From contig DAAN01000008.1 in assembly GCA_001701135.1 (NCBI GenBank), positions 1 through 35,940 on the forward strand: a stretch of DNA of 35,940 bases, written 5' to 3'. Numbering within the stretch: position 1 is the stretch's first letter; each line of letters begins with the position of its first letter. This stretch comes from Bacteroidales bacterium H3 (GTDB taxonomy: Bacteria; Bacteroidota; Bacteroidia; Bacteroidales; Muribaculaceae). Shown piece by piece: positions 2,894 through 35,940 of the stretch. Below the pieces are notes generated by a model. The model was not told the origin of the DNA. It saw only the letters and a list, made by a program, of their open reading frames with translations, and made no database searches. The translations under genes were made by a program, and so were the position numbers.

Positions 2894-3802
2894 ATGTCAT
2901 CACCCAAAGCCCTACGATTCCTTTTAGCCCTGCTGTTGCTGTCGGCTTCGCTCTCGGCTCTCGCGCAGGAGCCGAGAGAGGCTGCTGCCACACAAGCCGC
3001 CGCCCCGGAGGCCACAAAGGCAGCCGCAGCGCCGTTGCGACCGGTCAGCGAGGCATTTATGCTCGAAGGAGGCTCGTCGCATCTGCTCGACACCTACCTC
3101 TCGCCGCTGAAATACACAGGCTGGAACGTGGCTTTCAGCTATGAACGGCGCCAGGCCATGAAGTTCTCGCCGGCGCTTTGGCGCCAGCAGCTCAACCTGC
3201 GCATCGAGGCCAGCGGCGCCCACAACCCGGCCGGCAACGCCACTCTATATTACGGCAATATCAGCGCCGCATGGTCGATGGCCCGCAGGTGGCAACTCCC
3301 GCTGGGCATCCGCGCCGAGGCCGGAGGCATGGCGCAGTTTAATGTCGGCGGCATGTACAACCGCCGCAACGGCAACAACCCCGCGGCGCTGAAGACCGAC
3401 CTCACGCTCGGCGTAATCGGCGCCGTCAGCCGCGGATTGCGCATCGGGCGCCTCCCCGTCACGCTCCGCTGGCAGTCGGCGCTCCCGCTTGTCGGCGCCC
3501 TCTTCTCGCCGGAATATGACGAGCTGTATTTCGAAATGTATCTGGGCAACCGCCACGGGCTGGTGCACTGCGCGTGTCCCGGCAACTTCTTCCGCTGGGA
3601 CAACCTGGTAACGGCCGACATCGGTCTGGGCAACACCGCGCTGCGCCTGGGCTTCCGCTCCGACATCTATTCGCAGAAGGTGAACCACATCACCACCCGC
3701 AATTTCTCCTACGCCTTCGTGCTGGGCGTGGTCACGGATTTCATCTCGGTCTCACCCCGCCGCAGCCTGCCATCGGGCAACAACGTAGAGTGGGCCTACT
3801 AA
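2894..3802 (+). CDS. DUF3316-like outer-membrane protein
   Basis: This is a secreted protein of 302 residues with an N-terminal signal peptide (hydrophobic residues about 8-22, then ALAQ). The rest alternates polar and aromatic strands typical of an outer-membrane or periplasmic beta-barrel. The segment around residues 55-75, with a serine-rich turn followed by TYLSPLKYTGWN, resembles the Bacteroidales DUF3316 family, which has no established function. It begins 15 bp after parC ends, so it may be co-transcribed with it, although a topoisomerase and a surface protein have no obvious functional link. The family assignment is from memory of its signature and is moderate. Confidence 0.65.
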   Translation: MSSPKALRFLLALLLLSASLSALAQEPREAAATQAAAPEATKAAAAPLRPVSEAFMLEGGSSHLLDTYLSPLKYTGWNVAFSYERRQAMKFSPALWRQQLNLRIEASGAHNPAGNATLYYGNISAAWSMARRWQLPLGIRAEAGGMAQFNVGGMYNRRNGNNPAALKTDLTLGVIGAVSRGLRIGRLPVTLRWQSALPLVGALFSPEYDELYFEMYLGNRHGLVHCACPGNFFRWDNLVTADIGLGNTALRLGFRSDIYSQKVNHITTRNFSYAFVLGVVTDFISVSPRRSLPSGNNVEWAY

Positions 3803-3812
3803 TCATCCGCTC

Positions 3813-3846
3813 ATGAAAATCAGCAGATTATGAAAATCAGCAGATT
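3813..3846 (+). repeat. 17-bp tandem duplication containing the start codon
   Basis: ATGAAAATCAGCAGATT is present twice back to back (3813-3829 and 3830-3846). The first ATG opens a six-codon frame (MKISRL) whose TGA overlaps the second ATG. The second ATG is the start of the S41 peptidase gene. The duplication thus creates a tiny leader frame with a stop-start overlap. Confidence 0.9.
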
Positions 3847-4882
3847 CATCACAGCCATAATAGCCTCCGCCATCGTCATTCCGCTGGTTGGCGGGTGCCA
3901 CGATGTGGAGCAATTTCCCGACGATCCGCGCGGCAATTTCGAGCAGCTTTGGAAAATCATCGACGAGCACTACTGTTTCTTCGCGCAGAAGGATGTGGAC
4001 TGGAACGAAGTGCACGACCGCTATGCCCCTCGCATATCATCCGCCATGCGACAGGAGGAGCTGTTCGACGTGTGCTCGCAGATGCTCGACGAGCTTCGCG
4101 ACGGCCACACCAACCTGTCGGCACCTTTCGCCACCTCCTATTACAAAAAGTGGTGGAGCGACTATCCGCAGAATTTCCAGCTGCGCATAATTCAGGAAAA
4201 TTATTTCAACTTCAACTACCGCAACACCTGCGGCATCACCTACGGCATTCTGGAGCAGAATATCGGGTATATGTATTATCCGAGTTTCTCCTATGGCGTG
4301 GGCGACGGCAATCTCGACTATATCCTGTCGTATCTGTCGACCGCCGACGGGCTGATCATCGACGTGCGCGACAACGGCGGCGGCAGCATGGACAATGTAG
4401 AGACCATCGTGCGCCACTTCATATCACGGCGCATTCCCGCAGGCTCAATATGCCACAAAACCGGGCCCGGACACAACGATTTCTCGGAACCATACACCTA
4501 TTATTTCAATCCCGCCGACAAAGGCCGCATCCTCTGGGAGAAACCGGTTGTGGTGCTCTGCAACCGTTCCACTTTCTCGGCGGCCAACAATTTCGTGTCG
4601 GTGATGAAGTCGCTGCCGCAGGTGACCGTCGTAGGCGACACCACCGGTGGCGGCTCGGGGATGCCATTCTCGTCGGAACTGCCCAACGGCTGGGGAGTGC
4701 GCTTTTCGGCATCGCCCCTGCGCGATCCCGAGGGGAATCTCACGGAGTTCGGAGTGGCGCCCACGCCGGGTTGCGAGGTCGACATGGATCCGCAAAAGGC
4801 ACTCGAGGGAATCGACACGATGCTTGAATTCGCCATCGCGCGGCTGATAACCCAACAGACGGCTGATAACCCAACAGAATGA
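3830..4882 (+). CDS. S41-family peptidase lipoprotein
   Basis: This is a periplasmic or surface-anchored serine protease of the C-terminal-processing/tricorn-like S41 class. The first 22 residues form a lipoprotein signal ending in the lipobox LVGGC. A helical N-terminal region (about 30-110) is followed by the S41 core: IIDVRDNGGGS near residue 180, NRSTFSAANNF with the likely nucleophile Ser250, and GDTTGGGSG after it. The CtpA-type lysine is not seen, as in many Bacteroidales members. No clear PDZ domain is visible. The chosen ATG is the second of two created by a tandem duplication, because only this one reads into the protein. The stop codon lies in a second tandem duplication that abuts the next gene. 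Confidence 0.85.
   Translation: MKISRFITAIIASAIVIPLVGGCHDVEQFPDDPRGNFEQLWKIIDEHYCFFAQKDVDWNEVHDRYAPRISSAMRQEELFDVCSQMLDELRDGHTNLSAPFATSYYKKWWSDYPQNFQLRIIQENYFNFNYRNTCGITYGILEQNIGYMYYPSFSYGVGDGNLDYILSYLSTADGLIIDVRDNGGGSMDNVETIVRHFISRRIPAGSICHKTGPGHNDFSEPYTYYFNPADKGRILWEKPVVVLCNRSTFSAANNFVSVMKSLPQVTVVGDTTGGGSGMPFSSELPNGWGVRFSASPLRDPEGNLTEFGVAPTPGCEVDMDPQKALEGIDTMLEFAIARLITQQTADNPTE
4841..4878 (+). repeat. 19-bp tandem duplication at the stop/start junction
   Basis: CGGCTGATAACCCAACAGA is repeated perfectly at 4841-4859 and 4860-4878, and the next base begins the ATG of the following gene. Because the unit is not a multiple of three, the second copy supplies the frame in which the S41 peptidase stops (TGA 4880-4882). 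With one copy the frame would run on to a stop at about 5231. Confidence 0.9.
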
Positions 4883-5997
4883 CAAGACAACTGCTGATAT
4901 ACGTCATCGCGCTCTGCCTGATCGCAGTCGGAGCATCCTCATGTGCGGAGAAGAAAGGCGACGCCGACTACTCCGACAACATCTTCACCGAGGCCCGGTT
5001 TATCCGCGGCCATGCGCTCCCCGACAGTTCCGTCATCATTTCGGTGGTCAATCCCTGGGACACCACGGCGCTGCTGGCGCAATACCGGCTGGTCAACGCC
5101 CCCGACACCACCACTGTGTCGGGACTGCCCACGCTGCGTCTGCCGCTGCAGCGAATGGTGGTCTATTCATCGGTTCATGCCGGTCTGCTCGCCGAGTCAG
5201 GACAGATCGACCGGATAGCGGGCGTGGCTGACGCGCAATATATCACCGACGATTCCATACGTGCACGCATTGCCGACGGCCGCATCGTGGATATCGGGTC
5301 GTCGATGGAACCCTCGCTTGAAAAAATTGTGGCGCTCAGACCCGACGCCATCCTCATCTCCCCTTTCAAGGACGCGGGGCACGGTGTGGCCGACCGCACG
5401 GGCATTCCTGTGATAGAGTGCGCCGACTACATGGAGCTTTCGCCCATGGGACGTATGGAATGGACCCGTTTCTATTCCATGCTGGCCGAGGGTATGGGCC
5501 GGGAGAATGACCGGATGTTTCGCAGCGTCAAATCGCGCTACGATTCGCTGTGCAGCGTGGCTTCGCGATTCGACAAAACGCCGCTCGTGCTCACCGAAAT
5601 GCCCGAGAAAGGTGTATGGACCCTCCCCGGCGAAGGGAGCTACGCCGTGAGAATCATCCGCGACGCGAATGCGGATGTGGCGGTGCCCACCGGGGATGTG
5701 CCGGGATCGGTGCCTATGCCCTACGAAAAAGCGCTTACTAAAGCCCGTGAAGCCGATTTTTGGCTTATCCGCACCTACGGTTACGACATCACCGCTGACG
5801 ACATTGTAAAAAAACAGCCTCTCAACGCCCGCATCCGCGCTTTCGCCAACGGAGGAGTTTTCAATGCCAACACTGCCGTAAGCCGGGTATTCGAGGACAT
5901 CGCGTTTCACCCCGACCGCGTCCTCCGCGACTATATCACGATTTTCCACAACACGCCCGACTCGCTGCTCTATTTCCACCGGGTCGCCACCCCCTGA
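4879..5997 (+). CDS. ABC transporter substrate-binding lipoprotein (Fe-siderophore/B12 type)
   Basis: This is a 372-residue solute-binding protein of the periplasmic-binding-protein type II clan (BtuF/FepB-like, Peripla_BP_2), which captures a metal chelate or corrinoid. The signal peptide ends in a lipobox (ASSC, about residues 19-22), so it is lipid-anchored. Characteristic segments are LRLPLQRMVVYSSVHAGLL, then EPSLEKIVALRPDAILISP near residues 145-165, and a C-terminal lobe with FANGGVFN and HPDRVLRDY. No permease, ATPase or TonB receptor gene adjoins it, so the ligand cannot be inferred. Its ATG overlaps the stop of the S41 gene (ATGA), which suggests translational coupling. Confidence 0.8.
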   Translation: MTRQLLIYVIALCLIAVGASSCAEKKGDADYSDNIFTEARFIRGHALPDSSVIISVVNPWDTTALLAQYRLVNAPDTTTVSGLPTLRLPLQRMVVYSSVHAGLLAESGQIDRIAGVADAQYITDDSIRARIADGRIVDIGSSMEPSLEKIVALRPDAILISPFKDAGHGVADRTGIPVIECADYMELSPMGRMEWTRFYSMLAEGMGRENDRMFRSVKSRYDSLCSVASRFDKTPLVLTEMPEKGVWTLPGEGSYAVRIIRDANADVAVPTGDVPGSVPMPYEKALTKAREADFWLIRTYGYDITADDIVKKQPLNARIRAFANGGVFNANTAVSRVFEDIAFHPDRVLRDYITIFHNTPDSLLYFHRVATP

Positions 5998-6069
5998 CTG
6001 CGGCCGGGGTAGACGCTGCCTTGGTGGTCTATGTAACATTTTAGCATACGTTTCCGTCATACGCGACCG

Positions 6070-6077
6070 TAATTTTG
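6070..6077 (+). promoter_or_regulatory. Candidate -7 element for the amidase gene
   Basis: TAATTTTG fits the Bacteroidetes -7 consensus TAnnTTTG and lies about 30 bp before the amidase start. No TTTG -33 element is found at the usual 19-21 bp; TTTC at 6051-6054 is 15 bp away. Confidence 0.45.
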
Positions 6078-6105
6078 CAGCACACACTGCAAAACCTTTA
6101 TCGCT

Positions 6106-6558
6106 ATGACAGAAAACACCCCTGCGGCTGCAACTCCCCGCATGAGCTGCAACCGCACAATCGACACCATCATCGTACATTGCTCCGCCACTCCGGCCGG
6201 ACGCGACAACAGCGCCGCCGACATACGCCGCTGGCACCGGCAGCGCGGGTTCTCCGACATCGGTTACCACTTTGTGGTGCGCCTCGACGGCACCATAGAG
6301 GCCGGGCGCCCGCTTGAACTGCCCGGCGCACACTGCCGCGGGCACAACCTCAGATCGATAGGCGTGTGCTACGTCGGCGGCCTCGACAGCGCGGGACGTC
6401 CGGCCGACACACGCACCCCGGCTCAGCGCGCCTCGCTGCTGCGCCTGCTCACAGCCCTCCATCTGGCGCATCCCCGCGCCACAATCCGCGGTCACCGCGA
6501 CTTTGCCGCCAAAGCCTGCCCCTGCTTCGACGCCACCCGCGAATACCGCCTCATCTGA
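6106..6558 (+). CDS. N-acetylmuramoyl-L-alanine amidase (T7 lysozyme-like)
   Basis: This is a zinc amidase that cleaves the bond between N-acetylmuramic acid and L-alanine in peptidoglycan (amidase_2/PGRP fold, 150 residues). Zinc ligands are His25, His130 and Cys138, and the catalytic pair is Tyr54 and Lys136. These match T7 lysozyme His17, His122, Cys130, Tyr46 and Lys128 with a constant offset of eight, a strong family assignment. No signal peptide is present, as in many phage-derived amidases and the small Bacteroidales amidases of this type. It stands alone, with its own candidate promoter and no phage genes nearby, so it is either a domesticated phage lysin or a housekeeping recycling enzyme. 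Confidence 0.88.
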   Translation: MTENTPAAATPRMSCNRTIDTIIVHCSATPAGRDNSAADIRRWHRQRGFSDIGYHFVVRLDGTIEAGRPLELPGAHCRGHNLRSIGVCYVGGLDSAGRPADTRTPAQRASLLRLLTALHLAHPRATIRGHRDFAAKACPCFDATREYRLI

Positions 6559-6648
6559 ATCCTCCCCTATTGGCAGATTCCGCAACCGCCATCTTATAAA
6601 ACTGTAAAAATAGATGGCGGGGGCGGGTGAGGTTTCCGAAAAGATTAG

Positions 6649-6656
6649 TAACTTTG
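6649..6656 (+). promoter_or_regulatory. Promoter -7 element (TAACTTTG) for the YitT gene
   Basis: TAACTTTG matches the Bacteroidetes -7 consensus exactly and lies 86 bp before the yitT-like ATG. No -33 TTTG is present at the standard distance. The rest of 6559-6742 holds no supported gene. Confidence 0.6.
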
Positions 6657-6742
6657 CAACGGTGAAACCTTCTGCCGCGACCCGACGACCGAGTCAGCCC
6701 GGGTCACGGCAAACCAGTCAACCGTAAAAAACACCTTTGCAC

Positions 6743-7732
6743 ATGACTTTTCAGAAACCTAAAGTGTGGCTTTTCGCCAAGGATTATCTGGTGATTATCA
6801 TCGGTATCGCCATGTATGGCCTGGGGTTCTGCGCATTCATTGCCACGGCTCCCGACAAAGTGGTGATCGGCGGCATGGCCGGTCTCAGCCAGATTGTCGA
6901 CATGATCACATTCGGCTGTTTCGGCTTCCATGTCCCCTATTCCGTCACTATATTCACCGTGAACTGTCTGCTGCTCGCGATCGCATGGAAGATTGTGGGC
7001 AGCACGTTTGTGTTCCGCACGCTCTTCGGCGTAGTGGTGATTTCAGTGATATTCGCGTTTTTCCAGCCGTTGTTCAGGCAACCGCCTGTGGTTGGCGAGA
7101 CCTTTATGAACGTGATTATCGGCGCCGTGCTCTGCGGCCTGGGCATAGGTCTGGTGTTTGTGCACAACGGTTCGACCGGAGGCACCGATATTGTTGCCGC
7201 CGTGGCCTCGAAAAAGAGCAATGTCACCATCGGGCGCGCCATGATGTACTTCGACCTGTGCATCATCTCGTCGTCGCTGATTCTGAAATTTTTCTTTGTG
7301 CCCGACTTCAGTTTCCAGGCAGGCGTCCCCTCGCTGGTCTACGGTCTTATCACACTGTTTGTGATCCCCTTCATGGCCGACATGGTGATTCACACCAACC
7401 GGCAGGCCGTGCAGTTCACCATCTTCTCGCCCAAATGGGAGGAAATCGCCACGGCCATCAACAACGAGGCCCAGCGCGGCTGCACCGTGCTCGACGGCAT
7501 GGGCTGGTACTCCAAAAAGGATGTGAAGGTGCTGCTGGTGATGTGTCGCAAAATTGAATCCGTGACCATATTCCGCATCATCAAATCGATTGATTCCGAC
7601 GCGTTCATCACTCAGGCCCAGGTAAACGGCGTGTATGGCCGCGGCTTCGACGAAATCAAGCTGAAAATGCGCCGGCCCGGTGCCCCGCTCGAGCACCCTG
7701 CCCGCCCAGAGGCATCATCGCGCATCGTCTGA
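6743..7732 (+). CDS. YitT family membrane protein (DUF161/DUF2179)
   Basis: This is a polytopic inner-membrane protein of 329 residues in the YitT family, whose transport substrate or role is not established. About six hydrophobic segments fill residues 12-240, including the family's glycine-rich stretch FVHNGSTGGTDIVA in the middle. The C-terminal cytosolic part (about 245-310, with GCTVLDGMGWYSKKDVKVLL) is the DUF2179 domain, a small ferredoxin-like fold. The start is set at ATG 6743; a TTG two codons upstream is possible but less likely. The gene has its own promoter and is monocistronic as far as can be seen. Confidence 0.85.
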   Translation: MTFQKPKVWLFAKDYLVIIIGIAMYGLGFCAFIATAPDKVVIGGMAGLSQIVDMITFGCFGFHVPYSVTIFTVNCLLLAIAWKIVGSTFVFRTLFGVVVISVIFAFFQPLFRQPPVVGETFMNVIIGAVLCGLGIGLVFVHNGSTGGTDIVAAVASKKSNVTIGRAMMYFDLCIISSSLILKFFFVPDFSFQAGVPSLVYGLITLFVIPFMADMVIHTNRQAVQFTIFSPKWEEIATAINNEAQRGCTVLDGMGWYSKKDVKVLLVMCRKIESVTIFRIIKSIDSDAFITQAQVNGVYGRGFDEIKLKMRRPGAPLEHPARPEASSRIV

Positions 7733-21064: not shown

Positions 21065-21072
21065 TTGTGGAG

Positions 21073-21147
21073 TGGGCGCTGAGGGATTCGAACCCCCGAC
21101 CCTCTGCTTGTAAGGCAGACGCTCTGAACCAGCTGAGCTAAGCGCCC
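21073..21147 (-). tRNA. tRNA-Val (anticodon TAC)
   Basis: The cloverleaf on the minus strand has acceptor GGGCGCT/AGCGCCC, a D arm with AGCTCAGCTGGTT, anticodon stem TCTGC/GCAGA with loop CTTACAA (anticodon TAC), and T arm GGGGGTTCGAATCCC. It is 75 nt with discriminator A; CCA is not encoded. It is identical to the second copy about 250 bp away. Confidence 0.95.
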
Positions 21148-21322
21148 TCAAAAAAAAGCTTGTTGGTAGCGAGTGCCGCAATCGCCGGTTTCTCATCGTG
21201 GGCCGGCTGTTATGACTGACCTTTTTCCCTTTGGGAAAATCAACCGACCATGTCCCTCGCGGGAGGTTTGACCCTCTCCAGGGCCGAAACTTTGTGGCGT
21301 TGAACGGCGAGACAAAAGGATG

Positions 21323-21397
21323 TGGGCGCTGAGGGATTCGAACCCCCGACCCTCTGCTTGTAAGGCAGACGCTCTGAACCAGCTGAGCTAAGCGCCC
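21323..21397 (-). tRNA. tRNA-Val (anticodon TAC), second copy
   Basis: This is identical over all 75 nt to the copy at 21073-21147. It lies nearest the promoter and is read first. The 175-bp spacer between the copies holds no supported gene, so the two probably come from one precursor transcript. Confidence 0.95.
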
Positions 21398-28204: not shown

Positions 28205-28289
28205 GGAGAGATGGCAGAGTGGTCGATTGCGGCGGTCTTGAAAACCGTTGAGGGTCACACCTCCGGGGGTTCGAATCCCTCTCTCTCCG
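28205..28289 (+). tRNA. tRNA-Ser (anticodon TGA)
   Basis: Acceptor GGAGAGA/TCTCTCC, anticodon stem GCGGT/ACCGT with loop CTTGAAA (anticodon TGA), a long variable arm (TTGAGGGTCACACCTCC) typical of class II tRNAs, and T arm GGGGGTTCGAATCCC. It is 85 nt and CCA is not encoded. Phage genes begin about 80 bp beyond its 3' end. Confidence 0.95.
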
Positions 28290-28311
28290 CATTTAACGCT
28301 GATTATCAGTG

Positions 28312-30317: not shown

Positions 30318-30692
30318 TTACTCGTCGTAGCCGGCGGCGATGAGGTCGGCTTTGGCGTTGGTCTTAATCTCCTTGACGCGGCGCAGGTAGGCCTTGTAGT
30401 TCTCTACGGCCTCGGCGGCCTCGGTCTCGTCGAGCATTCCTTCCTGGGCGGCGTTGTAGCTGTTTACCAGGTCAAATTCGGCGGTCTCGTCTACTTCGTC
30501 GCGGATTACGGCCTTGACTACGGCGGCGCGGGTCGGGGTGCCCCAGATCTTGACGCTCTTATAGTCGTAGGAGTGGCGCTCGTTGCCTTCTTCGTCGGTC
30601 TCGGTCTCGGGCGTGATCGCGTAGTTGTAGTAGAAGGCGCCGTTACCCAGGTCTTGAATAATCTGGGGCTTATCGTTTGAATTTGATTTCAT
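30318..30692 (-). CDS. Hypothetical phage protein overlapping the RT gene
   Basis: This is an acidic protein of 124 residues with no signal peptide or membrane span. An N-terminal beta-rich part (GNGAFYYNYAI) is followed by helices from about residue 55 (TRAAVVKAVIRDEVDETAEF) and a charged helix near the end (ENYKAYLRRVKEIKTNAKAD). Its start lies 23 bp inside the end of the reverse transcriptase gene, so it is probably translationally coupled to it. Small acidic proteins near tail-fibre genes can be assembly helpers, but no family is recognised. Confidence 0.6.
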   Translation of the reverse strand: MKSNSNDKPQIIQDLGNGAFYYNYAITPETETDEEGNERHSYDYKSVKIWGTPTRAAVVKAVIRDEVDETAEFDLVNSYNAAQEGMLDETEAAEAVENYKAYLRRVKEIKTNAKADLIAAGYDE

Positions 30693-31719
30693 ACGGTGCG
30701 GTTTTGTTAAGTTTTTGAATTAAAAATTTACTATCACTATGTTTGCACCAGCCCCACCATGAGGCGCAGCGCTGTAAAAAGTCGGCTTCGCTTATGGGCT
30801 TTTTGGCTTTGCGCATGTTGCCTATAGCCCGGGCGAAGTGCTTTTTAATACCCTTGCGGAGCCGTGTTTCCTCCAGGTAGAATACGTAGCCGAGGAAGTC
30901 TACGCCGCGGCCGTGTTTATCGCGGTGCGTTCTGGCTACTGGAAATATTTGCTTATTGGGTTTAATCTCCAGTTTTAGGTGCGTGGCCAGGTAGTCCTCC
31001 ATGTCCGCTAAAAGCTGGCGTAAAATCTTCTTGTCTGAAGCTAAAAATACTATGTCGTCGGCGTAGTCTATCATAATAAGTTTTACGCCGTGCTCCTTCG
31101 CCCATCGTTGCCGAAGCCACATTATAAACCTGGCGAAGTAAAGAAGGGCGAAGAAGATCGAGGGGTGGTTGCCGATGGGGATGCCGTCGGCGCTGTCTAT
31201 AAGGTCGTCTATTAAGGCCAGGAGCCGGCGGTCTTTAATCTTCCATCGTACCTCCCGCTTTAATACGTCGTGGTCGATGCTCGGGTAAAATTTGCGGATG
31301 TCTATCTTTAGACAGTACAGGCAATTTCCCGGTTGGTTCCGAAGGAAGTATTTAACGCGGTCGGCGGCTGCCTGGATGCCTCGGCCTGGAAGGCCGCAGT
31401 AGGTATCGCGGTCGAAAAGTCCCCGCCAGATCGGGGCTACGACGTTCATTATAGCGTGGTGCACTATGCGATCAGGGTAGTAAGGAAGGCGAAAAATAAC
31501 GCGCTCCTTCGGCTCGTGTATAATGAAGGTCGTATAGGCCGAGGGCTTATAGGTTCCGGCCTTTAATTGTTCGTGTAGCGTCTGGATATTGGCTTCCCGG
31601 TGCTTGTCGTGTACCATGACGCCGTAGGAGCGCAGCTTCCCCTTGCGGGCGGTCTCGTCCGCAGCTCGAAGGTTATCTAAGCTAATAACCTGGTCGAAGA
31701 GGTTGCCGTGTCTTTTCAC
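30670..31719 (-). CDS. DGR reverse transcriptase
   Basis: This is the RNA-directed DNA polymerase of a diversity-generating retroelement. It copies the template repeat with adenine-directed errors, and the mutagenic cDNA replaces the variable repeat. The 349-residue protein begins VKRHGNLFDQVISLDNLRAAD, typical of DGR enzymes. It shows KIDIRKFYPSID (Asp140), the domain-4 motif IPIGNHPSIFF (182-190) and catalytic YADD (219-222) in MIDYADDIVFL. There is no maturase, endonuclease or msr-msd region, which excludes group II introns and retrons. The start is GTG 31719; no in-frame ATG lies between an upstream stop and this codon. It follows the template repeat by 154 bp. Confidence 0.96.
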   Translation of the reverse strand: MKRHGNLFDQVISLDNLRAADETARKGKLRSYGVMVHDKHREANIQTLHEQLKAGTYKPSAYTTFIIHEPKERVIFRLPYYPDRIVHHAIMNVVAPIWRGLFDRDTYCGLPGRGIQAAADRVKYFLRNQPGNCLYCLKIDIRKFYPSIDHDVLKREVRWKIKDRRLLALIDDLIDSADGIPIGNHPSIFFALLYFARFIMWLRQRWAKEHGVKLIMIDYADDIVFLASDKKILRQLLADMEDYLATHLKLEIKPNKQIFPVARTHRDKHGRGVDFLGYVFYLEETRLRKGIKKHFARAIGNMRKAKKPISEADFLQRCASWWGWCKHSDSKFLIQKLNKTAPYEIKFKR

Positions 31720-31873
31720 TTCTTTTGCTTTGCTGATTCCCAGCGGCGGTTCGACTGGCGTCTACTATGCCGCCTTTGAATGGGGTTAATATTTTTTTAC
31801 CTTGTTGTCGGTATGGCCTAAGCCCTTTGGGTTATATTGTTGCCTGGTCGGTAGCTGGCCGGCCTGGCTTGTC

Positions 31874-31986
31874 AGTAATTCCGGGAGCCGATGTTCGCAT
31901 TCGTATTCGAGGGGGCGTTATTCGTATTCGCATACGCGAGGCCGGCATTCGTGCCGTTATTCGCATTCCCGCCGAAGAGCACGCCC
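31874..31986 (-). repeat. DGR template repeat (TR)
   Basis: This is a 113-bp non-coding donor repeat. On the minus strand it holds about 28 adenines, many in AAT or AAC codon positions relative to the target frame. It is 99 of 113 identical to VR, and all 14 mismatches are at A in TR. The spacing to the target gene is constant (offset 577), so no gaps are needed. It lies in a 294-bp gap (31720-32013) with no gene. Confidence 0.95.
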
Positions 31987-32013
31987 TGGGGCTAACAGCC
32001 GTATATCGTGGCG

Positions 32014-32349
32014 TTACTCGACGTAGTAGCGGGTACCGCTGGCGCGCATGGTTACGTGGCGCGGGAAGGCGTTCCGCTGCTTGATCTGGTCGAGCACGTA
32101 TTTAATTTCTCGTGAATTTGTAAAGAATTTGCGGGCGTCGGCCATCTTGTCGTCCTTGTGGAATTTAACCAGCACGATGTAACGGTCTTCGCCGTATTTT
32201 GTTCTTTGTCCGGCTATGAAGTCGCAGAGCCAAAAGTCCCGGTTAATCAGCTGTTGCTGGGTTGTCTCCGGGCAGTTGAAGTGCTTGTTACTCTCGTCCG
32301 GCGCTATGTTAAGGAAGGCCAGGGAGCCGTCGTCTTGTTTGGTGTCCAT
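32014..32349 (-). CDS. Putative DGR accessory protein, avd position
   Basis: This 111-residue protein is encoded between VR and TR, exactly where BPP-1 encodes Avd, the basic helical partner of the reverse transcriptase. It does not look like Avd. Its charge is roughly balanced, and it appears mixed: a core around DFWLCDFIAGQR and DRYIVLVKFHKDD (likely beta-strands), then a helix about residues 72-92 (NSREIKYVLDQIKQRN), and a final strand VTMRASGTRYYVE. It may be an RNA- or cDNA-binding accessory of another family, or a phage gene carried along. I do not recognise a named domain. Confidence 0.7.
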   Translation of the reverse strand: MDTKQDDGSLAFLNIAPDESNKHFNCPETTQQQLINRDFWLCDFIAGQRTKYGEDRYIVLVKFHKDDKMADARKFFTNSREIKYVLDQIKQRNAFPRHVTMRASGTRYYVE

Positions 32350-32379
32350 GTTACTGGTGTTAATTTGGTTTTGGATTGA

Positions 32380-32410
32380 CCTCGGGCGCCTATAATCGTG
32401 GCGCCCGAGG
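32380..32410. promoter_or_regulatory. 11-bp-stem hairpin just downstream of VR
   Basis: CCTCGGGCGCC (32380-32390) pairs perfectly with GGCGCCCGAGG (32400-32410) around a 9-nt loop. It starts 20 bp past the stop of the target gene and 40 bp past VR. DGRs such as BPP-1 carry a hairpin or cruciform just downstream of VR that boosts retrohoming; this is the matching element by position, though it could also act as a terminator. Confidence 0.75.
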
Positions 32411-32430
32411 CGTTAATCGTGGCGGCTCGT

Positions 32431-33783
32431 TTACGCTGCTGCGGGTATAAAGCAAAGCCGGGAGCCGACGTACGCAAGCGTAAGCGAGGGGGCGTTATAC
32501 GTATTCGCAGACGCGAGGCCGGCATCCGTGCCGTTAGTCGCAGTCCCGCCGAAGAGCACGCCCCTAAGAGCCTGCCCGCTGGTCGGGATGTTGGTATAGA
32601 AGTAGTCGCAGAAGTATGCCGTAGAGCTGGCAGCGGCTCCTGCTACTATCGGCATATTTTCGCCGTATTCTCCTACCATGAGCGTCTTAACGTAGCCCTC
32701 ATTTCTTGGAAGGTCGCCGCGCTCCTGGTAGTTGGCCAGGGCGGCCTCGGTGCTTCCGAAGTTAGCCGGGTTGTCGCAGGTGTAGAAGATCGAGCGGCCG
32801 CCGCCGTCGTTGCTCTGAATTAGGCAGAGACAGCCGTCCGTCCAGCTCCATGTGTGGCCGAAGGGGTTTTCTATGCCGCGGTAGCTGGGTACCTTGACGA
32901 CGAGCGCCGTACCTCCGGGGTTATACTCGTCGGGCATCGTAAAGCTGACTACGCCGGTAGCGTTGCCGAGGCTGTTGGTTATGCCGCAGGGGATAAATGG
33001 GTTGTAGCCGTTAAGCGTGTTCCATTTGCTGCTCTCCAGGGTTGTTACTCCGGCGCCGAGGCCTCCCTGCTTGTAGCCGTTGGCGTCCGGCTGGGCGTTA
33101 AATTCGGCCTGGCAGTTGCGGGTGGCGTATTCTATAACAAAGAGCCAGTAGGTGGTTCGCTGGGCTTCGTATAGGTCGCAATTCCAGCCGGCGCCGTTGA
33201 GGCCGGCCGTCCCTCGGTTGCGGGCGTAGGCTCGGAAGTTGGTTAACGATATGCTGGTGGCGGGCTTGCCGAGAAGGCTTCTATAGGTACCGTCCCAGGA
33301 GGCGGTGTTGTTGCCGCCTCGGAAGGCCGCCGTAGTGTTGCACACTGCGGCCAGCTTGGGGGTGGCTGCTACGGTTCGGTCTACGGTGGCTTCGACTGCG
33401 CTACGGTAGCACTTGCGTACCTTGTGGAAGCCCGGCAGGGGATACTCGCTAATTAAGGAGCTGAAGTTGTTGCCGTCAAACTCGAATTTAGCGTAGTGAT
33501 CCGGAAGCTCTACCATATACATGCCGTCGGTGCCGTCGAGCTTGGCGGCGGTTCCGCTGTCCTTCTTGGTGCTGTCGGTCGGGTGCAGGTAGTAGTTTAC
33601 GGTGCCGTCGTCTTTAAGAATACAGCGGCGCATCCTGCTCTGGATCGGCAGGCTCTGGTGTAGCTCGGTGCGGCCTACGCGCTCTACGGCGGGGTCTCCT
33701 ACGCTGAGCTTTATTTTCACGCCGTAGTAATAATCGTAGGGAAAAACGGGCTTAGTGTTGCCCGCGGCGATAATAAGTCCCAT
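32431..33783 (-). CDS. DGR target protein, predicted phage tail/receptor-binding protein
   Basis: This 450-residue protein is the target of the DGR. Its C-terminal end carries VR (residues about 408-445), where 11 residues differ from the template: 414, 416, 420, 425, 429, 434, 436, 438, 439, 443 and 444. The scaffold residues GVLFGG, NAPS and GSR are unchanged. Such targets end in a C-type-lectin-like fold that displays the variable residues for binding, and the region around DLYEAQRTTYWLFVIEYATR fits that fold. No signal peptide is seen, as for a virion protein. It lies directly after a small protein gene and has 18 bp between stop and start. Confidence 0.9.
   Translation of the reverse strand: MGLIIAAGNTKPVFPYDYYYGVKIKLSVGDPAVERVGRTELHQSLPIQSRMRRCILKDDGTVNYYLHPTDSTKKDSGTAAKLDGTDGMYMVELPDHYAKFEFDGNNFSSLISEYPLPGFHKVRKCYRSAVEATVDRTVAATPKLAAVCNTTAAFRGGNNTASWDGTYRSLLGKPATSISLTNFRAYARNRGTAGLNGAGWNCDLYEAQRTTYWLFVIEYATRNCQAEFNAQPDANGYKQGGLGAGVTTLESSKWNTLNGYNPFIPCGITNSLGNATGVVSFTMPDEYNPGGTALVVKVPSYRGIENPFGHTWSWTDGCLCLIQSNDGGGRSIFYTCDNPANFGSTEAALANYQERGDLPRNEGYVKTLMVGEYGENMPIVAGAAASSTAYFCDYFYTNIPTSGQALRGVLFGGTATNGTDAGLASANTYNAPSLTLAYVGSRLCFIPAAA
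32451..32563 (-). repeat. DGR variable repeat (VR)
   Basis: This is the 113-bp 3' end of the target gene that matches TR. Substitutions relative to TR (coding strand) include AAT to ACT twice, AAT to GAT, TAT to TCT, AAT to TAT, AAT to CTT three times, AAC to TAC, ATC to GTC and TAC to TGC. No change occurs at any TR base other than A, and no insertion or deletion is present. Confidence 0.95.
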
Positions 33784-34216: not shown

Positions 34217-34430
34217 TTATGTCGTCTTAATTCGTACCCATTTGCCGTTAACGAGCGTCTGGGCGCCGCTGGAGTCGACCTTCAGACCGTAATTGCCCCA
34301 GCGGGTCTCGAAGCCCTGGGAGGCTGAATAAAATAGATACTTGTCGGAGGCGTGCATGGTTAAAATGCCGTCTTTGGCGATGGTCGTTATATTGGTGCTT
34401 TGGGCGGCGGTTGGAAAAGGCGCGCGTGAT
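34217..34430 (-). pseudogene. C-terminal remnant of a phage tail gene cut by IS21
   Basis: About 70 codons of one frame end at TAA 34217-34219. The residues include ITTIAKDGILTMHASDKYLF, then FETRWGNYGLKVDSSG and TLVNGKWVRIKTT, the look of a tail-fibre or tail-tip C-terminus. The frame has no start in this window because the IS21-family element begins near 34431. The rest of the gene should resume beyond the far end of the element. Confidence 0.65.
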
Positions 34431-34515
34431 TGACCCCTTCGGGCACGCGGGACTGACCCCTATGGGCGAAATAAGAATGACCCTTGCGGGCGAAATAAAA
34501 ATGACCCCTGTCGAA
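34431..34515. repeat. Iterated end repeats of the IS21-family element
   Basis: Four copies of TGACCC(C/T) followed by a GGGC- or CGAAGC-like half begin at 34431, 34454, 34478 and 34502, spaced 23-24 bp. IS21-family ends carry multiple repeats that bind the transposase, so these mark the left end of the element. The exact end base and the target duplication cannot be fixed without the right end. Confidence 0.65.
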
Positions 34516-34538
34516 GCATTGGCAGGGGATTTTTTTTG

Positions 34539-34546
34539 TAGCTTTG
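34539..34546 (+). promoter_or_regulatory. Candidate -7 element for istA
   Basis: TAGCTTTG fits TAnnTTTG, 50 bp before the istA ATG. The -33 region is unclear (TTG at 34519-34521, 17 bp away). Confidence 0.4.
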
Positions 34547-34595
34547 AGATTCCTTGTTCTGGCACGGCGGGGATCAATCTCAAAAATTACAGAAT

Positions 34596-35940
34596 ATGAT
34601 TGCAAAATTAAAAAACATCCTTAGATGTTACGCAGTCGGAATGGGAATAAAAGAGACGGCCAACACGTTTCACCTTTCCCGCAACACCGTACGCAAGTAT
34701 GTCCGGCTGTTCATTTCAAGCGGCAAGACTGCCGAACAGCTGCTTGAGCTCTCGGAAGAGCATCTCCGTGAGATGTTCGGATGCACGGAGTTCCGTCGCC
34801 GCGAGCCATCTCAGCGTCAGCTGGAGCTGGACGCACTGATACCGGGCTATGTGGCCCGGCTCTCCCGCAAGGGCATGACGGTCCGCAAGCTTTTCAACGA
34901 ATACAAAAGCGAACATCCCGACGGCTTTCAGGAGTCAGTGTTCAAACGCGCTGTCCGGCAGTACCGGTTCCACACCACAGTAGTAGGCCACGTCGAGCAC
35001 TACGCCGCCGACCAGATGTATGTCGACTTCGCCGGAGACAAGCTGGAGGTGGTAGATGAAATGACTGGAGAAGTCAAAAAGGCTGAGGTGTTTGTCTCCA
35101 TACTTCCATTCAGCCACTACACGTACTGCGAGGCCGTGTGGTCGCAGCGCAAGGAAGACCTGATCAAGGCCTGTCAGAACGCGTTCGAATACTTCGGGGG
35201 TGTGACGGCCGCCATCGTGCCCGACAATCTGAAGGCGGCTGTAAAGACAAGCGACCGCAACGAGCCTGTGATCAACGAGGAGTTCGCGGCCTTCGCCGAC
35301 CATTACGGATGCGCCGTATATCCCGCGCGGGTCCGCCATCCCAAAGACAAGGCCCTTGTCGAGAACGCCGTCAAGCTGCTGTACCAGTCAGTGTATCTTG
35401 ACATAGAGGGGATGGTCTTCCCGTCGCTGGACGAACTGAACACGGCGATTCACATATCGCTGCACGACTTCAACGAAAGGCTGATGGCAGGGAGGAATAT
35501 GTCGCGTAAAGACATGTTCCTGCAGGGCGAAAAGGACTTCCTGCGTCCCCTTCCCGAGAAACCGTTTGTCATCAAGGAGCGAAAGCTGATGACAGTGGGC
35601 AAGAACTGTTATGTCTCCCTGTTCAAGCACCATTACAGCGTGCCGCGCGAGCATGTCGGCAAACGTGTGGTCATCCTTTATGACGCGGACACGGTTGAGA
35701 TCTACTGCGGCCTCAATCTCGTGGCGACACACGACCGCTGCGACATACCCTACACATACTCATGGAAGAAGGAACACAACCTGCCCGGCCATTACGGCCC
35801 GTATGACAAGGATCTGGAGGAACTCTTCAAGCGAGCCGCTGAAATGGACAACATCGTCCTTGACTACCTCCACGAAGTGGATGCCATGATGCAGTATCCG
35901 CCGAAATCCTTCAGCAGTTGCCGCGGCATACTGTCGCTTG
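34596..35940 (+). CDS. istA: IS21-family transposase IstA, 3' end cut by the window
   Basis: This DDE transposase cuts and joins the element's ends with help from the ATPase IstB. An N-terminal helix-turn-helix (about 8-40, with GIKETANTFHLSRNTVRKYV) binds the ends. The RNase H-like core has Asp144 in MYVDFAGDK, Asp210 in VPDNLKAAV and Glu256 in LVENAVK, the complete DDE triad. A linking domain follows (FERLMAGR-like DFNERLMAGRNMS). 448 codons are visible without a stop, and full-length IstA is somewhat longer. ATG 34596 opens the HTH directly. Confidence 0.93.
   Translation, partial: MIAKLKNILRCYAVGMGIKETANTFHLSRNTVRKYVRLFISSGKTAEQLLELSEEHLREMFGCTEFRRREPSQRQLELDALIPGYVARLSRKGMTVRKLFNEYKSEHPDGFQESVFKRAVRQYRFHTTVVGHVEHYAADQMYVDFAGDKLEVVDEMTGEVKKAEVFVSILPFSHYTYCEAVWSQRKEDLIKACQNAFEYFGGVTAAIVPDNLKAAVKTSDRNEPVINEEFAAFADHYGCAVYPARVRHPKDKALVENAVKLLYQSVYLDIEGMVFPSLDELNTAIHISLHDFNERLMAGRNMSRKDMFLQGEKDFLRPLPEKPFVIKERKLMTVGKNCYVSLFKHHYSVPREHVGKRVVILYDADTVEIYCGLNLVATHDRCDIPYTYSWKKEHNLPGHYGPYDKDLEELFKRAAEMDNIVLDYLHEVDAMMQYPPKSFSSCRGILSL

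Follow-up and report, generated by a model that had tools for sequence, protein, structure and literature searches.

When the accessory protein Avd is inactivated in the reconstituted diversity-generating retroelement (DGR) of Bordetella phage BPP-1, repair falls to ~1e-9 (PMC12875486), so that one may ask which partner does the work in DGRs that have no Avd. This question is raised by a locus of Bacteroidales bacterium H3 (assembly GCA_001701135.1, contig DAAN01000008.1), analysed as a stretch of 35,940 nucleotides which is called the window throughout. The minus strand of the window carries, within a prophage, a target gene with a variable repeat (VR), an accessory gene, a template repeat (TR), a spacer and a reverse transcriptase (RT) gene, in this order. 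The cassette is a true DGR of an Avd-free type. Its accessory protein, here called the helper, has a predicted OB-like (oligonucleotide/oligosaccharide-binding) fold and is a homologue of the C-terminal part of hankyphage RTs. We consider it quite likely that this protein replaces Avd in the error-prone copying of the template at adenines. A sequence-only reading of this DNA had called the DGR canonical, which has to be revised: the accessory is not Avd, the RT is without SQ, and the spacer resembles the Rfam RNA RT-17 rather than the Phage_DGR RNA of BPP-1. The parts of the cassette are as follows.

32431..33783, minus strand: target gene for a predicted tail protein of 450 aa, which contains the VR at its 3′ end (phrog_5302 "tail protein", E 1.5e-121)
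32451..32563, minus strand: VR, from alignment with the TR; diversified part 32458-32563, with the side of the initiation of mutagenic homing site (IMH) at the low-coordinate end
32380..32410, no strand assigned: hairpin past the VR, 11-bp stem and 9-nt loop, 40 nt beyond the 113-bp repeat
32014..32349, minus strand: gene for the 111-aa helper, which occupies the avd position and belongs to phrog_19665; its fold is predicted to be OB-like, and it is not Avd
31874..31986, minus strand: TR, with 28 adenines in 113 bp, from alignment with the VR
31721..31818, minus strand: spacer RNA between TR and RT, RT-17-like but sub-threshold (RF03020, 21.8 bits, model positions 1-95)
30670..31719, minus strand: RT, 349 aa, with YADD (RVT_1 8.6e-15, phrog_1423 1.1e-107)

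The RT with its YADD motif and the VR at the 3′ end of the target gene are present as the sequence-only reading had described them, and the assignment of the target to tail proteins, which it had inferred, is borne out by the PHROGs match; a Pfam match was not found for the target protein. The alignment of TR and VR could also be reproduced. Over 113 bp there are 14 mismatches, and all 14 are at TR adenines (coding strand), for which the chance is 1.5e-10 given 28 adenines in 113 positions. Not all of the 14 are best read as mutagenic. The mismatches at TR positions 107, 108 and 111 fall beyond the GGCTCCCGG core, where the VR reads CTTTGCTTTAT and the TR reads AATTACTGA in the window as well as in the related loci L004, L005, L026, L042 and L085. 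Because the same contrast is found in these near relatives, the last three mismatches look like a fixed difference between IMH and IMH*. After this correction, 11 mutagenic mismatches are left in 106 positions (chance 1.6e-8). Stop codons are out of reach, as no adenine-bearing codon in the first 106 TR bases can be mutated to one. Two properties expected of a DGR, the IMH/IMH* difference and the location of the VR at the 3′ end of the target gene, are thus both found. The hairpin past the VR, which had been counted among the parts of the system, is present in the window but is not a general component, since a stem of at least 8 bp occurs in just 33 of the 79 loci checked; it is kept in the near relatives of the window and absent from many other loci.

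The gene in the avd position had been correctly located, but it belongs to a family other than Avd. Avd was considered as a candidate and rejected: bAvd (PF22296) has no match up to an E value of 1 in the helper, in the transposase or in eight further open reading frames (ORFs) of this region, while the BPP-1 Avd, used as a control, matches both PF22296 and phrog_3206. The helper instead matches phrog_19665, a family of unknown function, over residues 7-110 (6.1e-29), and it has no significant Pfam match. In hankyphage p00, the homologue of the helper is the stretch of RT residues ~323-421, in frame. The similarity to this RT C-terminus is 34% by blastp, and the hidden Markov model (HMM) of the family agrees. 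A hankyphage-type RT matches phrog_19665 over residues 327-433 (1e-19), and profile comparison of the helper family with the hankyphage RT C-terminus by hhalign gives 98.5% (E 2.3e-15). By these sequence comparisons, the helper and the C-terminal domain of the hankyphage RT are homologues. The structure model of the helper shows an OB-type strand order, and the same order is found in the model of a fused RT; the fold is therefore predicted to be OB-like, of a nucleic-acid-binding type. In contig L005 (7067-7425), a stop splits the helper gene into two frames.

Helper domains occur in three arrangements: before the TR, after the RT and fused to the RT. In the LoVEphage (L002:3170-4713) the RT extends across three overlapping frames with the helper domain on the last of them. 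A separate helper gene after the RT is found in L049 and L126 and, by its position, likewise in L052, L053, L054 and Versailles; L003 and L052-L054, which had at first been scored as helper-less, do have a helper after the RT by phrog_19665. Linkage was analysed by scanning IMG/VR with the helper family alone, which confirmed 104 loci, and the best 80 of these, some of them near-copies, were kept. A DGR-type RT is present in 77 of these best 80 loci (74 adjoining, 3 fused). All but one of the adjoining RTs are located 206-321 bp downstream of the helper (73 cases), the remaining one being 5 bp upstream. In the three loci without an RT, the contig stops 1, 132 or 198 bp past the helper gene. 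A large protein set contains 348 relatives of the helper of stand-alone length and 1776 of RT length, and PF00078 was counted manually in 114 of the 120 RT-length relatives that were listed.

The distribution of the two accessory families is consistent with mutual exclusion. Among 26 records, phrog_19665 is found in 22 and is missed in BPP-1, Nostoc, VP58.5 and the L027 genome (Bacteroides pyogenes). Only three of 34 records have bAvd, all three of them Avd controls. Of 21 records searched for both, many of which are fragments, three have Avd only, 17 have the helper only, none has both and one has neither. An unusual arrangement occurs in L015 (1493-1640), where the target joins the RT directly. 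In comparison to L020, helper, TR and spacer are gone as one block which spans from the start codon of the helper to that of the RT; either the DGR has become locked or the loss stems from the assembly.

The spacer between TR and RT provides a second characteristic of this DGR family, as the Rfam RNAs RT-17 (RF03020) and RT-3 (RF03068) are found directly upstream of its RTs. The window copy matches RT-17 over its full length and at the right place with 21.8 bits, which is below the gathering score of 40.4, and it is therefore labelled RT-17-like; it also has a weak match to RT-18 (17.4 bits). A scan of the complete window with Rfam at the gathering score retrieved three tRNAs and nothing else. 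Of 31 related loci, 10 have RT-17 at or above the gathering score, and at E values of at most 0.001 it is found in 22 of 34 records, 9 of them above gathering. All 22 matches touch the RT start or are within ~30 nt of it. By type, they occur in 21 of 27 records with a separate helper gene and in L027 (1 of 1), and in none of three Avd controls and none of three hankyphage types. The records with a separate helper but without the match are L003, L004, L005, L026, L060 and L063, the last of which reaches gathering in another scan. The association between RT-17 and the helper thus has exceptions, since the RNA is present in L027 without a helper and is missing in six helper records. In the DGR of L027 (9718-11011), the RT-17-like RNA before the RT scores 30.8 bits, and neither Avd nor a helper domain was found in this Bacteroides pyogenes genome.

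RT-3 is above the cut-off in three of 21 records (L001, L128 and L129), all of which are hankyphage-type fusions. It was found neither in L130, where the contig begins inside the RT, nor in the LoVEphage, and L060 has a sub-threshold match. The window has no match to RT-3 or to RF03022 (Phage_DGR), the latter being detected in the control L039. An alignment of 12 spacers from the wider clade of the window has 7 pairs in the structure proposed by RNAalifold itself, 5 of them with compensatory change. RNAalifold found no consensus pair in 21 diverse spacers, and the resulting model R1 is thus sequence-only and was not used. The Rfam names of RT-17 and RT-3 state merely an association with RTs. 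In the literature searched, which left out preprints and several possibly relevant papers, the domain is not named and RT-17 and RT-3 are not linked to DGRs, so a prior description is possible.

Taken as a mechanism, RT and helper would be recruited by the TR transcript, which has an RT-17-like structure at its 3′ side. The helper may hold single-stranded RNA or cDNA, or it may dock the RT on the spacer RNA. The cDNA, in which TR adenines have been copied into random bases, would then replace the VR upstream of the IMH and thereby change the tail tip, and the SI motif of the RT would leave the adenine specificity intact. It is likely that the helper family serves this role in a whole branch of DGRs. 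More cautiously, we tend to favour a second, Avd-free class of DGRs that is large in gut phages and combines an OB-fold partner, encoded by its own gene or as part of the RT, with an RT-17 or RT-3 spacer, in which the hankyphage helper is the tail of the RT and SQ is not needed for infidelity at adenines.

The RT itself is clearly of the DGR type. In a profile search against PDB the best match is the DGR RT 8ub7 (3e-81), followed by a group II RT (9e-46), and in a phylogenetic tree the window RT groups with the RTs of DGRs and is separated from two group II RTs. The tree, which has several long branches, was calculated from 96 rows (89 different) by a quick method without bootstrap after rows below 260 aa had been dropped; its outgroup consists of the two group II rows only, as a Shewanella row which was hand-labelled group II has SQ and falls inside. 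In place of [IVL]GxxxSQ, the window RT has IGNHPSI, and this SI motif is shared by L004, L005, L026, L042, L043 and L045. SP motifs occur in two other groups (LGSPLSP/LGSPISP and IGNYLSP/IGNYPSP). L036, which a regular expression had retrieved as an SP locus, also has IGSLISQ and was not used. A node with a value of 98 unites the SI rows (7 rows, node value 99) with the LGSP group (6 rows, 100). The second SP group (5 rows, 100) branches elsewhere. From this separation in the tree, SQ has probably been lost at least twice. According to PMC3521204, SQ is found in 90% of DGRs and 15 of 155 have SP, SH, NQ, PA, AQ or VQ, with SI not among these exceptions. The motif is typical of DGR RTs but does not strictly define them.

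The adenine signature was counted by motif and arrangement. The share of mismatches at TR adenines is 73 of 75 for SI (5 loci, two with the same VR and TR) and 151 of 152 for SP (11 loci). For SQ with the helper before the TR it is 750 of 785 (47 pairs, 45 loci), for a helper after the RT 45 of 47 (3 loci, LoVEphage included) and for fused helpers 23 of 23 (3 loci). Loci for which no helper had been found at that stage have 200 of 217 (15 pairs, 11 loci), and one locus with an unread motif has 13 of 13. These fractions are biased upward, since pairs were kept if at least 60% of their mismatches were at TR adenines, and the counts are not independent, since near-copies are included (L005/L042, L085/L088, L092/L093/L097). 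The weak point of the counts is that the unfiltered best pairs are without adenine bias in L045, L049, L052-L054, L106, L108, L110 and L112. The same applies to L014 (5/8), L019 (10/15, with Ns) and L125 (12/17) and to some loci without a helper, for example L029 and L033. In L045 the best pair is another repeat. In L049, L052-L054, L106, L108, L110 and L112 it consists of two VR-like copies, and a third copy, the TR, gives an adenine-rich pair. One TR with two VR-like copies was observed in these loci and in L126; differences between the two copies are at mixed positions, and nearly all differences from the TR, where compared, are at TR adenines.

Ongoing change of the VR can be followed in relatives. 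Comparison of L091 and L103 revealed no difference in 500 bp before the VR, in 445 bp between VR and TR, in the 117 bp of the TR and in 1200 bp past the TR. The VR has 14 differences in 117 bp, and 13 of these are at TR adenines. As the surroundings are identical, this DGR family is active. No perfect stem of at least 5 bp was found within 120 nt past the VR in L091 and L103, and the hairpin is thus dispensable in this active pair. L085 and L089, which are of the SP type, have identical TRs and 10 differences in the 500 bp before the VR, while the VR has 18 differences in 106 bp, all at TR adenines; the 1200 bp past the TR cannot be aligned without gaps (773 mismatches), and the RT match of L089 is partial. 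Across relatives, VRs vary and mismatches at non-adenine TR positions are few. By sequence comparison, ongoing VR change is thus established for the relatives and not for the window copy.

For the window copy, it has to be considered that the prophage may have been damaged. Its assignment as a prophage, already proposed from the sequence, is supported by the phages L026 and L028, which are ~88% identical to the window from tRNA-Ser at 28205 up to 34411. They reside in metagenome-assembled genomes labelled Prevotella and Muribaculaceae and are the nearest relatives. The two edges of this region are marked by the following features.

28205..28290, plus strand: tRNA-Ser, likely attachment site and left edge of the phage; the L026/L028 match begins exactly at its first base
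34412..35940, plus strand: insertion that carries a gene for a transposase (rve, Mu-transpos_C_2; ORF 34554-35939), outside the DGR and running off the window

The insertion is presumably IS21-like. Homology breaks at 34411 in comparison to L026 and at 34407 in comparison to L004. The break corresponds to position 7314 of L026, which is inside a gene for 1441 aa (3180-7505) with matches to tail-type PHROGs, so that the window copy of this gene is interrupted near its 3′ end, upstream of the target. Judged from this comparison, the prophage of the window is probably defective.

It may thus be argued that the DGR of the window is dead, with SI in place of SQ, a tail gene cut by the insertion from ~34412 and a VR that is a fixed relic. 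SQ has been proposed to set RT fidelity (PMC3521204), and L005, L006 and L042 all have the same VR. We nevertheless regard this as doubtful, because the reading frames of RT, helper and target are all open, the SI loci retain the adenine signature and, in comparison to L026, 13 of 14 VR differences of the window are at TR adenines (with two differences between the TRs), although none of these points shows present activity.

The main rival to a helper that replaces Avd in template copying concerns the step at which it acts. It may act after reverse transcription and coat or anneal the cDNA during its transfer into the VR, like a phage annealing protein or a single-stranded DNA-binding protein. 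This would suit the predicted OB-like fold, and SSB, PriB, P12 and LEF-3 are among the weak structure matches of the helper. In a comparison to viral structures the best three matches are RT-domain proteins, and two single-stranded DNA-binding proteins follow at E ~0.02. A Foldseek search of PDB gave no helper match under E 0.001, and the best PDB sequence match has E 1.1. An RT partner is more in line with the fusion to the RT seen in hankyphages and on the last frame of the LoVEphage, as well as with the pairing of the helper with a specific spacer RNA, and we consider a purely later role unlikely. That the gene is a passenger which merely sits in the cassette is very improbable: position by itself is no proof of function, and L015 retains target and RT without it, but the TR has been lost there too, and linkage to the RT in 77 of the best 80 loci with contig ends in the rest, the three arrangements including fusion and the exclusion with bAvd all speak against a passenger.

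With the helper taken as a substitute for Avd in template copying, the window can be compared to known systems. The DGR of hankyphage (Bacteroides phage p00) has the same helper domain, adenine-only differences between TR and VR, a tail target and no bAvd match. It differs in that the domain is fused to the C-terminus of the RT, which is ~29% identical and has kept SQ, and in that the spacer is RT-3; in the window, the helper is a separate gene and RT-3 is not matched. A hankyphage figure legend in PMC12135933 marks an Avd, and PMC6199706 points to a small ORF by its size and charge. We found no bAvd homologue in the p00 record. The ORF of 64 aa between VR and TR (L001:3515-3706) has no Pfam or PHROGs match, and an Avd label on this ORF would thus have no support from homology.

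The BPP-1 DGR shares with the window the order target/VR, accessory, TR and RT, adenine mutagenesis and an RT of the DGR clade, but its accessory is Avd (PF22296), its spacer is RF03022 and its RT has SQ. DGRs of Treponema denticola also have a non-Avd accessory gene, coding for an HRDC protein, beside RT and TR. By its description in PMC4891356, this gene differs from the helper gene in being located between TR and RT and overlapping the RT gene. DGR-type RTs of crAss-like phages (cr55_1, cr115_1) are 45-47% identical to the window RT over 97%. No helper was found in crAss-like phages by tblastn against the phage collection or by the family HMM in the fetched stretches of cr55_1 and cr115_1, to which the HMM search was confined.

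The helper family is thus a concrete candidate for the partner in Avd-free DGRs, and both linkage and fusion connect it with the RTs of DGRs. Its role can be tested in culturable hankyphage lysogens, for which the DGR is reported to be active in culture (PMC12135933). The assignment of RT-17 and RT-3 to DGR spacers, if true, would provide a function for two orphan Rfam RNAs. The natural SI and SP variants bear on the proposal, made in PMC3521204, that SQ sets the infidelity at adenines.

A small gene (30318-30692) overlaps the end of the RT gene; it matches phrog_11557 (3.5e-18), and a match to the same PHROG occurs at the same place in L026 and L027. The host-side flank carries a gene for topoisomerase IV/gyrase A as well as sugar-nucleotide genes. 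At 21072-21397, the window has two tRNA-Val(tac) with identical scores, 250 bp apart, which form a perfect repeat of 76 bp.

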